DNA of 64,000 bases, from positions 4,254,001 to 4,318,000 of the forward strand of contig NC_022657.1 in the NCBI RefSeq assembly GCF_000494755.1, written 5' to 3'. Positions 22,755 to 53,961 of the stretch are shown here, in pieces. How positions within the stretch are numbered: the stretch's first letter is position 1; every line of letters starts with the position of its first letter. Both the position numbers and the translations under genes were made by a program. The notes below the pieces were generated by a model. The model did no database searches. It was not told the DNA's origin and worked only from the letters and a program-made list of their open reading frames with translations. This DNA is from Amorphoplanes friuliensis DSM 7358 (GTDB lineage: Bacteria > Actinomycetota > Actinomycetes > Mycobacteriales > Micromonosporaceae).

Positions 22755-23936
22755 CTAGTAGGGTGCGACCGTCAGTGCCGACATCCCGGCCGCCGCGTCC
22801 ACGTCGACGCGGTTCGCCGTCGCGTCCCACGAGTCCGGCGTGAACGTCCTCCCGGCTGCTACTCCTGCGTGGCTGCGGCCGTCCACGGTGACCTGACCTG
22901 CGCCGCTGCCTACGCGGACACGCACCGGGACCGCGCCCGCGGTCCGTACGTCGAAGAGGCTGACACCGCCGCTCATCCGGACGTTCAGGGTGCCGTCCGG
23001 CCGGGGGAGGGTCAGAGCGATGCGGCCCGCGCCGCCGGTCAGATCCACACCGCCGACGCGGCCCGCGCTGAGATCGATCGTGCTGAGGTCGGCACCACCG
23101 GCCATCCGCAGGTCCCAGAGCACGGCGGCATTCAGCAGCACCTCGACCGCCTGGGCGTCACCGTCGAGCCGCAGCCGGACGCGGCCGTCCTGCTCATCGG
23201 CTCGGGGCACCACGGTGCCGGTCTCCGGAGTGCTGATCCGGTAGAGGCTGTCGCCCAGGTCCGCGGCCCGGACGGTCACCCTCTTCGCGCCGTCGATCAG
23301 GTCGAAACCGGCGGTCGTGCGGCCTTCGAGGGCCGCGGTGGCGGTGTGGGCCGCGGCGGCGGCAGCGACCGGCGGGCTCCAGCCACCGCCGTCGGCCGGC
23401 GGGCTGCCGTCCCGGCCGAGGACGATGACGGTCGCCCCGGTGAGCAGCAGCGCAACGGCGGCGACACCCGCACCGATCAACCACCGCCGGCCCGGCGCGG
23501 CGGCATCAGCCGATGCCGGTTCCAGCGTTCCGGGTGCCGCCGTTCCCGGTTGCGCGTTCCCGGCCTGCGGCGTTTCCAGCCGCGCGTTTCCGGCCTGCGG
23601 CGTTTCCGGCTGAGCGTTTCCGGCCTGTGGCGTTCCCGGCTGAGCGTTCCCGATTTGCGGCGTTTCCTGCGTGGGTTCGGTCAGGGGTGCGGGCCCGGAG
23701 CGGGGACGGCCGAGCCGGCCCAGGGCCGGGACGCGCCGCGAACGCTGGGGATCGGCGCCGGTCAGAGCCAGGGTGAGCGCCGCCTGGGCCAGCGTCGGCG
23801 TCGACCGCGGTGTGTCCGCCGCGAGCATCTCCGCGGTGACGACGGGCAGTTCGAGCGTCGGCTCGTCACCCGGCAGGGGATGGCCGGGCTCGGGCCAGTC
23901 CTGCGGTGACGAGGGGTCGCCGGTGATTCCGTGCAT
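22755..23936 (-). CDS. Membrane-anchored protein with decapeptide repeats and DUF4097-like outer domain
   Basis: A 393-residue protein with a cytoplasmic N-terminal half, one membrane helix (WLIGAGVAAVALLLTGATVI, about residue 165-185) and an extracellular C-terminal domain. Before the helix lie four 10-residue repeats of the form TPQAGNAQPE, encoded by a 30-bp tandem repeat. The outer domain is rich in short beta strands with regularly spaced Gly-Gly turns (RMAGGADLSTIDL, MSGGVSLFDVR), resembling DUF4097-type beta-helix proteins. A GGAGG box precedes the ATG at 23936. No known partner is adjacent and the function is unknown. Confidence 0.65.
   Translation of the reverse strand: MHGITGDPSSPQDWPEPGHPLPGDEPTLELPVVTAEMLAADTPRSTPTLAQAALTLALTGADPQRSRRVPALGRLGRPRSGPAPLTEPTQETPQIGNAQPGTPQAGNAQPETPQAGNARLETPQAGNAQPGTAAPGTLEPASADAAAPGRRWLIGAGVAAVALLLTGATVIVLGRDGSPPADGGGWSPPVAAAAAAHTATAALEGRTTAGFDLIDGAKRVTVRAADLGDSLYRISTPETGTVVPRADEQDGRVRLRLDGDAQAVEVLLNAAVLWDLRMAGGADLSTIDLSAGRVGGVDLTGGAGRIALTLPRPDGTLNVRMSGGVSLFDVRTAGAVPVRVRVGSGAGQVTVDGRSHAGVAAGRTFTPDSWDATANRVDVDAAAGMSALTVAPY
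23551..23670. repeat. 30-bp tandem repeat (4 units) coding for decapeptides
   Basis: Four consecutive units start at 23551, 23581, 23611 and 23641, each exactly 30 bp and differing at a few bases. The period is a multiple of three, so the repeat keeps frame and encodes TPQAGNAQPE-like decapeptides in the membrane-anchored protein. Such arrays can vary in copy number between strains. Confidence 0.8.
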
Positions 23937-40870: not shown

Positions 40871-41107
40871 ATGAATTCGAAATGGTCCATCCGCTCCGAG
40901 AACTCGGTCCTGAGCATCTGCTCGAAGGATTCCGTGCTGTCGATCGGGTCGGTCGGCTCCGGTCTGTCGATCGGGTCCGTGGGCTCGTTCGCGTCGGTCG
41001 CGTCCGTCGGCTCGGTGCTCTGCGTCGGCTCGCTGCTGTCAGCGGTGTCGCTGTGGTCGGTGATGTCCTGGCGTTCCCGCAAGGCCGTCACCGCCGGTCG
41101 GCGGTGA
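40871..41107 (+). CDS. Small serine-repeat protein (SxxSxGS pattern)
   Basis: A 78-residue protein made almost wholly of Ser at every third residue or so: ENSVLSICSKDSVLSIGSVG then SGLSIGSVGSFASVASVGSV, ending LWSVMSWRSRKAVTAGRR. The pattern S-(V/L)-L-S-I-x-S-(V/K)-G-S would put Ser and small hydrophobic residues on alternating faces, as in a narrow solenoid. There is no signal peptide and a basic tail. The frame continues upstream, but ATG 40871 precedes the pattern. Similar tiny proteins occur in actinomycetes, without known function. Confidence 0.6.
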   Translation: MNSKWSIRSENSVLSICSKDSVLSIGSVGSGLSIGSVGSFASVASVGSVLCVGSLLSAVSLWSVMSWRSRKAVTAGRR

Positions 41108-50359: not shown

Positions 50360-51190
50360 TCAGGCGTAGGTGCCGGAGCGAAGATCGTCGAGCAGCGACA
50401 CGGCCTTCGGCGCCCAGCCCAGCGACCGGGCCTTCGCACCGGTGGTCTGCTGGTCGAGCAGCAGCGCGTCGGCGAAGAGAGCACCGAGCCGCTCACGAGA
50501 CGCGTCGACACTCTCCGGGGTGACACCGGCGTTGCCGGCTGCAGCCTCGCCCAGCTCACGCACGGTCGGGTTCTCACCCGAGGCGCCGATCAGGTAGCCG
50601 AGCCCCTCACCACGCTCGAGCACCGTGCGGTAGAGCGCCGCGATGTCGTCGACGTGCACGGTCGTCCAGTGCTGCGTGCCTTGGCCGACGAGCTTCCCGC
50701 TGCCGTCGAACACCCCACCCGGAATGCCACCGCCATACCCGTAGACAATCCCCGGTGCGATGATCGTGGCCGTCAGGTCGGCCTGGAGAACAAGCTTCTC
50801 GACCGCACTGCGCCACGCGGTCAGCTGCGGGGGTGCGAACGGCGACTCCTCGGTGATCGTGTCGTTGCTGCCCCAGATCCAGATGCCGCTCGTGTGCACG
50901 TACGGCTTGCCCGCGCGGACCGCCGCCGCGACCACGCCGCGGTCCAGCTCCTGGGTTGTTGCATCGCCGGTGGCCGCGAGATGTGCCACGGCATCCCCGG
51001 CGGCGAACTGCTCGGCCACCCACGCGGAGTCGAAGAGATCACCCACGGTGGCCTGCGCACCGAGCGCGGTGACCTTGGCCGCCCCGGCCTCGTTACGCAC
51101 CAGCGCGGTGACCTGATGCCCGGCGCCGACCAGCTCCTTGATCAGCGCAACCCCGATGTAACCCGTCCCACCCGTCAAAACGACCTGCAT
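50360..51190 (-). CDS. NAD(P)-dependent epimerase/dehydratase-like SDR
   Basis: A 276-residue extended short-chain dehydrogenase. The dinucleotide-binding motif VVLTGGTGYIGVALIKEL starts the protein. The usual catalytic YxxxK is replaced: after VHTSGIWIWGSNDTITEE no Tyr-x-x-x-Lys is seen, only TAWRSAVEKLVLQA, which places Trp-Arg-x-x-x-Glu-Lys there. It may therefore be an atypical NmrA-like or reductase-type SDR. It is the first gene of a probable three-gene unit. Confidence 0.78.
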   Translation of the reverse strand: MQVVLTGGTGYIGVALIKELVGAGHQVTALVRNEAGAAKVTALGAQATVGDLFDSAWVAEQFAAGDAVAHLAATGDATTQELDRGVVAAAVRAGKPYVHTSGIWIWGSNDTITEESPFAPPQLTAWRSAVEKLVLQADLTATIIAPGIVYGYGGGIPGGVFDGSGKLVGQGTQHWTTVHVDDIAALYRTVLERGEGLGYLIGASGENPTVRELGEAAAGNAGVTPESVDASRERLGALFADALLLDQQTTGAKARSLGWAPKAVSLLDDLRSGTYA

Positions 51191-51303
51191 ACGCTCGACG
51201 CTAGACCCGCCTCAGCCATCACGCGGCGTGACGATAAACGCTCTTCCACCGGGACCGTACGGCCCGGCCGGAGTCAGCCCTCAGCCCGAACCGCCCTCCC
51301 ACA

Positions 51304-52038
51304 CGCCCAACTTCATCCATGTTGGGGCTAACCCAGCGCGGGTAGGCCCGACTTCGCTGATGTTGGGGCTAACGCGGTGTGGGTAGGCCCGACTTCGCCG
51401 ATGTTGGGCCTAACGCAGCGCGGGGAAGCCCAACTTCGCTGATGTTGGGCCGAGCGCGGCTGCTAGGCGGCGTCGGGGTTGCGCAGTGGGTCGATGTCTC
51501 GGGTTGGCCCAGCTTCGCTGATGGTGGGTCTCGCGCGGCTCGGCGAGGCCCAAGTTCGCTGATGTTGGGCCTAACGCGGCGTGGGAAGCCCCGACTTCGC
51601 TGATGTTGGGGCTAACGCGTAGCGGGAAGGCCACGCTTCGCTGATGTTGGGCTGAACGCGGCCCGGATAGGCCTAACTTCACCGATGTTGGGGCTAACCC
51701 AGCGCGGGAAGGCCCAACTTCACCGATGTTGGGGCTAACCCAGCGCGGGAAGGCCCAACTTCACCGATGTTGGGGCTAACCCAGCGCGGGAAGGCCCAAC
51801 TTCACCGATGTTGGGGCTAACCCAGCGCGGGAAGGCCCAACTTCACCGATCTTGGGGCTAACCCAGCGGGGGTAGGCCCGACTTCGTTGATGTTGGGCTT
51901 AGCGGGGTGCGGGAAGGCCCGACTTCGCTGATGTTGGGGCTAACGCCGCGTGGGTAGGCCCAACTTCGCTGAAGTTGGGCTTGGCGTGGCTCGGACAGGC
52001 CCAACCAAACCGACCTTGGTTACCGCCGTGGCATCGCC
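51304..52038. repeat. 41-bp tandem repeat array, about 18 units, each a hairpin
   Basis: Units start near 51304, 51345, 51386, 51427, a degenerate one near 51468, then 51506 and every 41 bp to 51998. One irregular unit is 38 bp. Three units (51711, 51752, 51793) are identical; others differ at several bases. Each unit has CCCAAC, a 9-base loop like TTCACCGAT, then GTTGGG, a hairpin. Several variant units read CCCGAC, which still pairs by a G-T wobble. There are no unique spacers. The array fills most of the 0.93-kb gap between the epimerase and recQ; the rest of the gap shows nothing. The period is not a multiple of three, which argues against coding. Confidence 0.88.
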
Positions 52039-52119
52039 GCCGCGGAGTTGTTCGTCGGCGACAGCACCGGCCTCGGCGCGGGAACCCACACGCCCTGCCG
52101 GTGCTGCGTCAGGCCCGGG

Positions 52120-53961
52120 TCACTCCTCGGCCAGGGCCTTGAGGACCTGCTCGCCGAACTTGGCCAATTTGTTCTCCCCGACGCCGTTGATCGTGGACAG
52201 TTCGGCCAGGCTGCCCGGACGCTGCGTGGCGATCTGGCGCAGCGTCGCGTCGTGGAAGACGACGTAGGCCGGAACGCCGGCCTCCTTCGCCGCGGCGGCC
52301 CGCCAAGTGCGCAGGCGTTCGAACATGGGCGCAGCCTCCGGCGGCAGGTCGGCCGCCGGGGCCGCCGTCTTGCTCGTCCGGGCTTTCGGGGCGCGGGCGG
52401 CGCGTTCCGGTTCGCGGCGCATCATGACCTGGCGTTCCTTGCGGAGGACGCTGCCGCTGTCGTCGGTCAGGACGAGGGTGCCGTATTCGCCCTCGACCGC
52501 GAGCAGGCCCTGGGCGAGCAACTGCCGGACCACGCCACGCCATTCGGCCTCGCGGAGGTCGGCGCCGATGCCGAAGACGCTCAGCTCGTGGTGGCGGAAC
52601 TGGGTGACCTTTTCGGTGGTCTTGCCGAGCAGGATGTCGATGGACTGGCCGGCGCCGAACTTCTGGCCGCGTTCGCGTTGGAGGCGCAGGACGGTCGAGA
52701 GGAGCTTCTGGGCGGCGACCGTGCCGTCCCAGGACTCCGGGGGGTTGAGGCAGGTGTCGCAGTTGCCGCAGTCGGCGGCGCCCTGCTGACCGAAGTAGGC
52801 CAGGAGGCGGGACCGGCGGCACCCCACCGTCTCGCAGAGGGCCAGCATCGCGTCGAGGTGTGCGGCGAGGTTGCGGCGGTGCGCGAAGTCGCCCTCGGAC
52901 GTTTCGATCATTTTGCGTTGCTGGACCACGTCCTGCAGGCCGTACGCCAGCCAGGCCGTCGACGGCAGGCCGTCACGACCCGCGCGGCCGGTTTCCTGGT
53001 AGTAGCCTTCGACGGATTTGGGCAGGTCGAGGTGGGCGACGAACCGCACGTCGGGCTTGTCGATGCCCATGCCGAACGCGATGGTGGCCACCATGACCAG
53101 GCCGTCCTCGCGCAGGAAGCGGGACTGGTTGGCGGCGCGGACCCGTGAGTCGAGCCCGGCGTGGTACGGCAGCGCGGCGATGCCGTTCTGCACCAGGAAG
53201 TCGGCGGTCTTGTCGACCGAGGCGCGGGACAGGCAGTAGACGATGCCCGCGTCGCCGGGGTGTTCGGTGCGCAGGAGGTCGAGGAGCTGGCGGCGGGGCT
53301 CGTTCTTGGGGACGATCCGATATTGGATGTTGGGCCGGTCGAAGCTGGCGGTGAAGTGGCGGGCGCCGGTCAGGTCGAGCCGGGTGGCGATCTCGGCGTG
53401 GGTGGCGGTCGTCGCCGTGGCCGTCAGCGCGATGCGCGGCACGTCGGGCCAGCGCTCGTGCAGCATGGACAGCTCGAGGTAGTCGGGCCGGAAGTCGTGC
53501 CCCCACTGCGACACGCAGTGCGCCTCGTCGATCGCGAAGAGCGAGATCTTGCCGCGGTCGAGCAGTCGCTGCGTCGACGGCACCCCCAGGCCCTCGGGCG
53601 CGACGTAGAGCAGGTCGAGCTGGCCCTCGGTGAAGGCCTGCTCGACGCGGCGCCGCTCGGTGAGGTCCTGGGTCGAGTTGAGGAAGCCGGCCCGCACGCC
53701 GAGCGTGCGCAGCGCGTCGACCTGGTCCTGCATCAGGGCGATCAGCGGCGAGACGACCACCGCGACACCGTCCCGGACCAGGGCGGGGATCTGGTAACAG
53801 AGTGACTTGCCGCCACCGGTCGGCATCAGCACCAGGGCGTCGCCACCCGCGATGACGTGCTCGATGATCTCCCGCTGCTCGCCGCGGAATCCGGAGTAGC
53901 CGAAGACGCGGTTGAGCACGTCGGCGGCGGGGGACCGATTGATCTCGGGGGCGGAAGTCAC
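52120..53961 (-). CDS. recQ: ATP-dependent DNA helicase RecQ
   Basis: A 613-residue RecQ helicase. Walker [18 protein letters not shown] and the DEAH box [20 protein letters not shown] mark the ATPase. The helicase C domain has [13 protein letters not shown], and the RecQ zinc-binding region has the cysteine cluster ([14 protein letters not shown] with [12 protein letters not shown]). A winged helix and a C-terminal HRDC domain ([20 protein letters not shown]) complete it. RecQ unwinds DNA in recombination and replication repair. GTG 53961 overlaps the GT87 stop (GTGA), so it is transcribed with mptB and the GT87 gene. Confidence 0.93.

Follow-up and report, generated by a model that had tools for sequence, protein, structure and literature searches.

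A tandem array beside recQ in Amorphoplanes friuliensis is one cluster of a REP-like palindromic repeat family with a replication-associated strand bias

The tandem array that fills the gap next to the recQ gene of Amorphoplanes friuliensis DSM 7358 belongs to a family of short palindromic repeats whose copies have multiplied to dozens of clusters across this chromosome, and the family is REP/REPIN-like in architecture and position. Judging from the searches described below, it appears to be private to one species among the 67 genomes of the genus. On balance, we favour the reading that the array is a head-to-tail amplified cluster of a mobile, species-private palindrome family of the REP/REPIN kind. 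The chromosome is a single contig of 9,376,071 bp; the window, i.e. the whole stretch of 64,000 nucleotides that was analyzed, covers positions 4,254,001-4,318,000, and the features of the locus are listed in Table 1 in window coordinates.

Table 1. The recQ-proximal repeat array, its units and the flanking genes
Feature	Position	Strand	Remarks
NAD(P)-binding / epimerase-like gene, transcriptionally downstream of the array	50360..51190	-	PF13460, PF01370
Tandem array of 41-bp units (21-bp core + 20-bp spacer)	51302..52040	+	about 18 units, including two decayed
Cores 1-4 (51306, 51347, 51388, 51429)	51306..51449	+	0-1 mismatch each
Off-step unit, decayed	51466..51503	+	3 bp short; 79-bp step between cores 51429 and 51508
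Twelve more cores at exact 41-bp steps	51508..51979	+	
Last core, decayed	52000..52020	+	5 mismatches
recQ helicase gene, 3' end towards the array	52120..53961	-	RQC, HRDC, DEAD

Genes were called with our own unpublished codon-usage caller, trained on this genome, and the array occupies a 929-bp gap between two minus-strand genes. A scan allowing ≤5 mismatches located 17 cores from 51306 to 52000, and 15 of the 16 core-to-core steps measure 41 bp, the remaining one being 79 bp (82 - 3). Together with the decayed off-step unit, these counts agree with a previous sequence-only reading of the window, which had described about 18 units with a 41-bp period, one of them 3 bases short, in a gene-free gap of about 0.93 kb. 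TRF reports the array at 51305-51979 (period 41, 16.5 copies, 78% matches) with a score of 609, the highest among its 18 rows in the window; further short tandem repeats lie at 23541-23667 (period 30) and 40939-41028 (period 27). Three units (51713, 51754 and 51795) do not differ from one another even in their spacers, which is unlike the unique spacers of a CRISPR, and the earlier judgment that neither coding nor CRISPR fits the array holds. Rfam produced hits to two microRNA models only, with scores far under the gathering cut-offs.

The hairpin proposed for each unit is present, but with other dimensions: the full palindrome of the family, CCCAACTTC-NNN-GAAGTTGGG, has arms of 9 bp and a loop of 3 nt, and the arms of 6 bp and loop of 9 nt given previously arose because 15 of 16 units of the window array have T:T at pair 7/15. 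On the plus strand, all three window units that were folded performed better than shuffled sequences (z -2.9, -2.9 and -4.1), and on the minus strand two were no better (z -0.8 and -0.9) and one was better (z -5.2).

The 21-bp core, CCCRACWTC-NNN-GAWGTYGGG, has 356 exact sites in the chromosome and none in 66 congeners. With ≤1 mismatch, 383 forward and 430 reverse matches were obtained genome-wide compared to 0 for the reversed control, which rules out a chance occurrence, and leaving positions 4, 7, 15 and 18 free gave 414 sites versus 1 for the reversed control. Clusters were counted in 956 kb of stretches (about 10% of the chromosome), a unit being any sequence with ≤2 mismatches to the core. 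This resulted in 69 clusters with 550 units, 55 of the clusters containing more than one unit and 63 lying outside called genes, so that the repeat is a high-copy and chiefly extragenic palindrome, as REPs are. The commonest steps are 41 bp (148) and 42 bp (133), while steps of 57-58, 60, 69, 73-74 and 27 bp are each confined to single clusters, and periods across the family range from 27 to 96 bp. One 27-bp tandem of the core (L158:2890-3018), with five copies in a convergent gap, has a reading frame that stays open over the repeats. The same genome also has unrelated intergenic arrays, such as L012:17280-17569 (period 28), L014:13412-13548 (period 31), L023:14564-15100 (period 120) and L028:2370-2715 (period 117), which serve as controls for the strand bias below.

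Outside this chromosome, the inner core alone was found in three relatives (two sites in G004, one each in G037 and G102) and in none of the other 63. Samples of three further relatives (400 kb of G050, 200 kb each of G017 and G055) contain other tandem repeats and no core; one of these, in G050 (L150:15014-15289), is an intergenic 42-bp array of 6.6 copies with a different short palindrome, CTGGGC..GCCCAG. A distant blastn search of a plasmid collection, from which records near the window were possibly left out, gave no match, and neither the core nor the two-core pattern introduced below was matched exactly in viral contigs. Across 84,980 species genomes, again possibly without near-genome records, the exact full palindrome occurs in 13 stretches of unrelated taxa, four of them on contigs of one Nitrospinales MAG (nzgw265). 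In that MAG (L087, L088, L094 and L096) it lies within about 40 bases of four contig ends, as if it had broken the assembly.

The position of the clusters relative to genes is strongly skewed. Of the clusters, 63 have all their units outside called genes, and 35 of these are in convergent, 25 in co-directional and 3 in divergent gaps. The 123 background gaps that measure 100 bp or more divide into 14, 62 and 47 (p = 3e-10 for the convergent excess and 2e-7 for the divergent deficit), and the full set of 352 gaps divides into 68, 212 and 72 (p = 1e-8 and 0.002, respectively). A preference for convergent and co-directional gaps is also reported for REPs (PMC3733652), as is their location between convergent genes (PMC1525189). 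Tolerance of insertions away from promoters would account for this bias equally well. In related genera, 7 of the 22 two-core elements lie in divergent gaps according to the same gene caller, indicating that promoter avoidance is no general rule.

Two clusters are in frame, each within an enzyme gene. The first (L057) encodes repeats of 14 residues (PNFKEVG type) within a beta-mannosidase-like protein of GH2 (PF22666, PF02836), and the second (L167) lies in a protein that has one weak Pfam match and presumably resembles peptidase S51/cyanophycinase. Matches to the two proteins were found in 66 and 7 other genomes, respectively, and all aligned homologs (11/11 and 7/7) are without the repeats, from which it follows that the repeat inserts. 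Single sites occur within called genes at L074 and L025, and units overlap gene ends at L052 and L159. At the window locus, the relative G025 keeps the recQ-epimerase order (its epimerase homolog is 72% identical) with a gap of 76 bp versus 929 and no family site; across the recQ loci of 29 relatives, no family site was detected and only G025 has the matching neighbor. Given the insertions within genes and this array-free junction, a mobile small repeat is the best of the options that the sequence-only reading had offered. No target duplication or element end could be defined for the repeat.

Comparison of adjacent units shows that the core arms are conserved as sequence and not as pairs. Mismatch averages 0.255 for the core arms, compared to 0.446 for the loop and 0.457 for the spacer; in 34 of the 38 arrays, the core differs less than the spacer does (p = 2e-8). 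These figures are to be read with the caveat that collecting units by the core (≤2 mismatches) favors a conserved core and that this bias is corrected only by middle units added blindly at double and triple steps. Pairing was analyzed in 525 units of the 63 intergenic clusters. At pair 4/18, 28 units have compensated double changes versus 39.5 expected within arrays (54.6 overall); at pair 7/15, the number is 29 versus 28.0 (23.2 overall); and the other seven of the nine core pairs have no alternative Watson-Crick pair at all. Compensation that keeps the core paired is therefore rejected for this genome, and the earlier argument that retained pairing in diverged copies reveals a preserved structure, for which compensatory changes in the arms were to be sought, does not stand here. 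Similarly, the wobble-pairing variants that it invoked do exist, but at pair 4/18 A-C mismatches (147) are about as common as G-T wobbles (133), and 224 of the 525 units have no Watson-Crick pair at 7/15. Such letter-by-letter conservation weakens the structural argument and speaks for a protein that recognizes each half-site.

A different picture was obtained for the two-core form in related genera. A generic pattern (CCC-N4-TC-N3-GA-N4-GGG twice, 42 bp apart, ≤1 mismatch) was found in 27 of the 354 genomes of the taxonomic family: 130 sites in this genome, 13 in G004, 3 in G037, 2 in G028, 1 in G104, 4 in G180, and one to three in each of 21 genomes of a genus (g50) that we take to be Micromonospora. 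The reversed control gave one match, in G004, and the matches in G028 and G104 look different in kind. In G004 the matches form arrays with a 40-44 bp step whose arms have different letters (e.g. CCCGTTTTCCTTGATGTCGGG), and in g50 and G180 they are each a single inverted doublet in which GGGGTGTCC-loop-GGACACCCC separates the cores. For 23 elements from two related genera (22 from the locus list plus one that a profile recovered), a 27-pair hairpin over both cores has 84.4% of its cells paired, compared to at most 54.3% in slid controls. Changes on both sides occur in 14 pairs versus 11.1 after shuffling (23 of 500 shuffles), and 57 cells are doubly changed versus 29.1 (0 of 500), positions fixed by the search pattern carrying no evidential weight. 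Compensatory change is thus present after all in related genera, in the two-core form. In this genome, neighboring cores are direct repeats: among 308 core pairs, loops are identical in 124 (98.9 in shuffles) and complementary in 14 (17.0 in shuffles), so that hairpins joining adjacent cores are unsupported, and doublets are few (e.g. L041, L045, L059 and L079).

The arrays also have a strand bias, and it goes with the half of the chromosome as defined by replication rather than with transcription. The dnaA gene is at coordinate 1 (PF00308 in L082:1-1881), from which the terminus was assumed to be at the chromosome middle, 4.69 Mb. The G+T excess of the spacers is positive in 20 of 23 arrays in the first half and in 1 of 23 in the second (p = 1e-8), compared to 16/11 and 11/11 for the 49 tandem arrays of other kinds that lie between genes in these stretches (p = 0.57). 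The GC skew of array spacers is +0.186 and -0.156 in the two halves versus +0.014 and -0.039 in ordinary intergenic DNA, its sign tracking the half and not the flanking genes. Core variants at pair 4/18 follow the half as well (16:6 and 6:19 arrays, p = 0.001), those at pair 7/15 not significantly (10:8 and 5:11, p = 0.19), and the G-T wobbles of the window array agree with this bias. Transcription as a source of the wobbles is unsupported (pair-4 variants by gene direction, p = 0.17), the transcript strand being the stabler one in only 14 of 25 co-directional gaps (p = 0.69). The leading-sense strand serves as the lagging-strand template, and it has the stabler hairpin in 52 of 63 arrays under RNA parameters and in 45 versus 14 under DNA parameters, although a G/T-rich strand gains wobble stability by itself. 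Mean composition alone orients 46 of 51 arrays correctly. With composition removed, the loop orients 34 of 51 (p = 0.024) and spacer columns only 30 of 51 in a leave-one-out analysis (not significant), and a column-specific sequence in the oriented spacer is therefore rejected. Since the bias is carried by composition, oriented insertion and strand-biased mutation confined to the arrays look the same.

For a mobile REP/REPIN-like family, the following course may be proposed. A non-autonomous, mobile hairpin element of one or two 21-bp cores inserts into the chromosome, chiefly downstream of genes, above all in convergent gaps, and now and then in frame within genes, as the location bias, the two in-gene arrays missing from homologs and the array-free junction show; the 41-42 bp unit then multiplies in tandem in place, as the direct repeats with array-specific spacers show. 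The slower drift of the arms leads us to infer that the half-sites are recognized by a protein, most simply the mobilizing enzyme. The on average stabler hairpin on the lagging-strand template suggests a process on single-stranded DNA there, and we regard spread or amplification on that template, put forward by analogy, as possible but less likely than not. IS200/IS605 and TnpA-REP enzymes work on single-stranded lagging-strand template (PMC6006769), and are the nearest working model because they act on such DNA.

High-copy, clustered extragenic palindromes in convergent and co-directional gaps, sequences that differ among species, and inverted doublets (here in related genera) are features shared with REP/REPIN/BIME systems, whose transposase is RAYT (TnpA-REP). 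Unlike those systems, the present family forms long head-to-tail 41-42 bp arrays, includes in-frame arrays in genes and has a strand bias by half-chromosome. A whole-genome search with PF01797 found no RAYT-like gene, from which a more diverged enzyme could escape; its three matches are of the IS200/IS605 type by eye, each adjoining a TnpB-like gene, and the 3-kb loci around them contain no family site. The three TnpB-like genes (L097, L098 and L099; likeness again judged by eye) are similar to each other, about 410 aa long, and each next to a partial Y1 transposase match. Nor is there a fixed GTAG/CGTC foot tetranucleotide: the base at -4 is A 0.41, T 0.29 or C 0.23, and that at -3 before the core is A 0.48 or G 0.28. 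As both transposase and tag were looked for and not found, we withhold an assignment to REP/RAYT proper. With IS200/IS605 elements the family shares hairpins and the tie to the lagging-strand template (PMC6006769), but neither element ends nor a linked transposase were found for it. GTAG/CGTC-tagged REP palindromes are reported from other phyla (PMC3733652), and a 2025 survey gives REP counts for three Actinomycetota genomes too (PMC12306157). In a literature search covering few subscription papers, no such repeats in Actinoplanes, Micromonospora or Micromonosporaceae were among the matches listed, and no paper joining RAYT, REPIN and actinobacteria was found.

Two other systems invite comparison. 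Rickettsia palindromic elements are likewise palindromic repeats in frame within protein genes, whereas the repeat here is mostly extragenic and tandem, with another sequence and another host. The sopC-type plasmid centromere is likewise built of tandem units, about 42 bp long and each containing an inverted repeat, but it is one plasmid array adjoining par genes, compared to dozens of chromosomal clusters here. That likeness bears on an alternative which the sequence-only reading had raised and which we consider unlikely, namely that the arrays are docking sites of a species-specific dimeric DNA-binding protein with a role in nucleoid organization, supercoiling or segregation, on the model of BIME-2 gyrase sites, sopC or polar FtsK-guiding signals and placed at gene ends, where twin-domain supercoils gather. 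Half-sites conserved with no pairing constraint, a 41-42 bp spacing close to four helical turns, the enrichment in convergent gaps and a bias that flips near mid-chromosome would all suit such sites. They fit poorly with a core missing from 66 other genomes of the genus, with insertions within enzyme genes and with periods of 27 to 96 bp. Moreover, the neighbors of the window array are RecQ and an NAD-binding protein, with no parA/parB, and no regulator was seen to recur among the neighbors of five loci (divergent or single-site), where one RpiR-type regulator and one sigma-factor-like gene occur.

It is improbable that the arrays are a passive satellite, in which random palindromic seeds expanded by slippage and acquired their polarity by strand-asymmetric mutation at stalled forks, immobile and functionless throughout. 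Composition alone would explain the polarity, unit numbers and spacings vary freely, and the location at gene ends could be mere tolerance; on the other hand, dispersal is needed to explain why dozens of loci whose spacers are unrelated have the same core, and the insertions within genes, the lack of strand bias in the 49 other tandem arrays and the conservation of the core relative to the spacer in 34/38 arrays argue against it. A terminator or 3'-end stabilizer of flanking transcripts is very improbable: in its favor are the gene-end location, the stable hairpins and the compensatory changes that the two-core form shows in related genera, but terminator-like matches (GC-rich stem plus T run) in the gap number 1 versus 0.8 by chance and lie at the array edge, the transcript strand is not the stabler one in co-directional gaps, and compensatory change is absent within cores.

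Returning to the mobile REP/REPIN-like family, a 21 + 21 bp frame is common to this species and G004, with differing arm letters, and appears more weakly in G037. We tentatively propose a bacterial satellite-DNA system, RAYT-less and replication-oriented, in which a hairpin would insert and amplify head to tail on the lagging-strand template, each species having its own fast-changing version. What has been found is an actinobacterial REP-like family that numbers hundreds of copies, occurs in one genome out of 67 in the genus, also lies in frame within genes, has no recognizable RAYT and is biased with replication. It raises two testable questions: what moves REP-like repeats where RAYT is absent, and whether the amplification of bacterial repeats may be coupled to lagging-strand synthesis.
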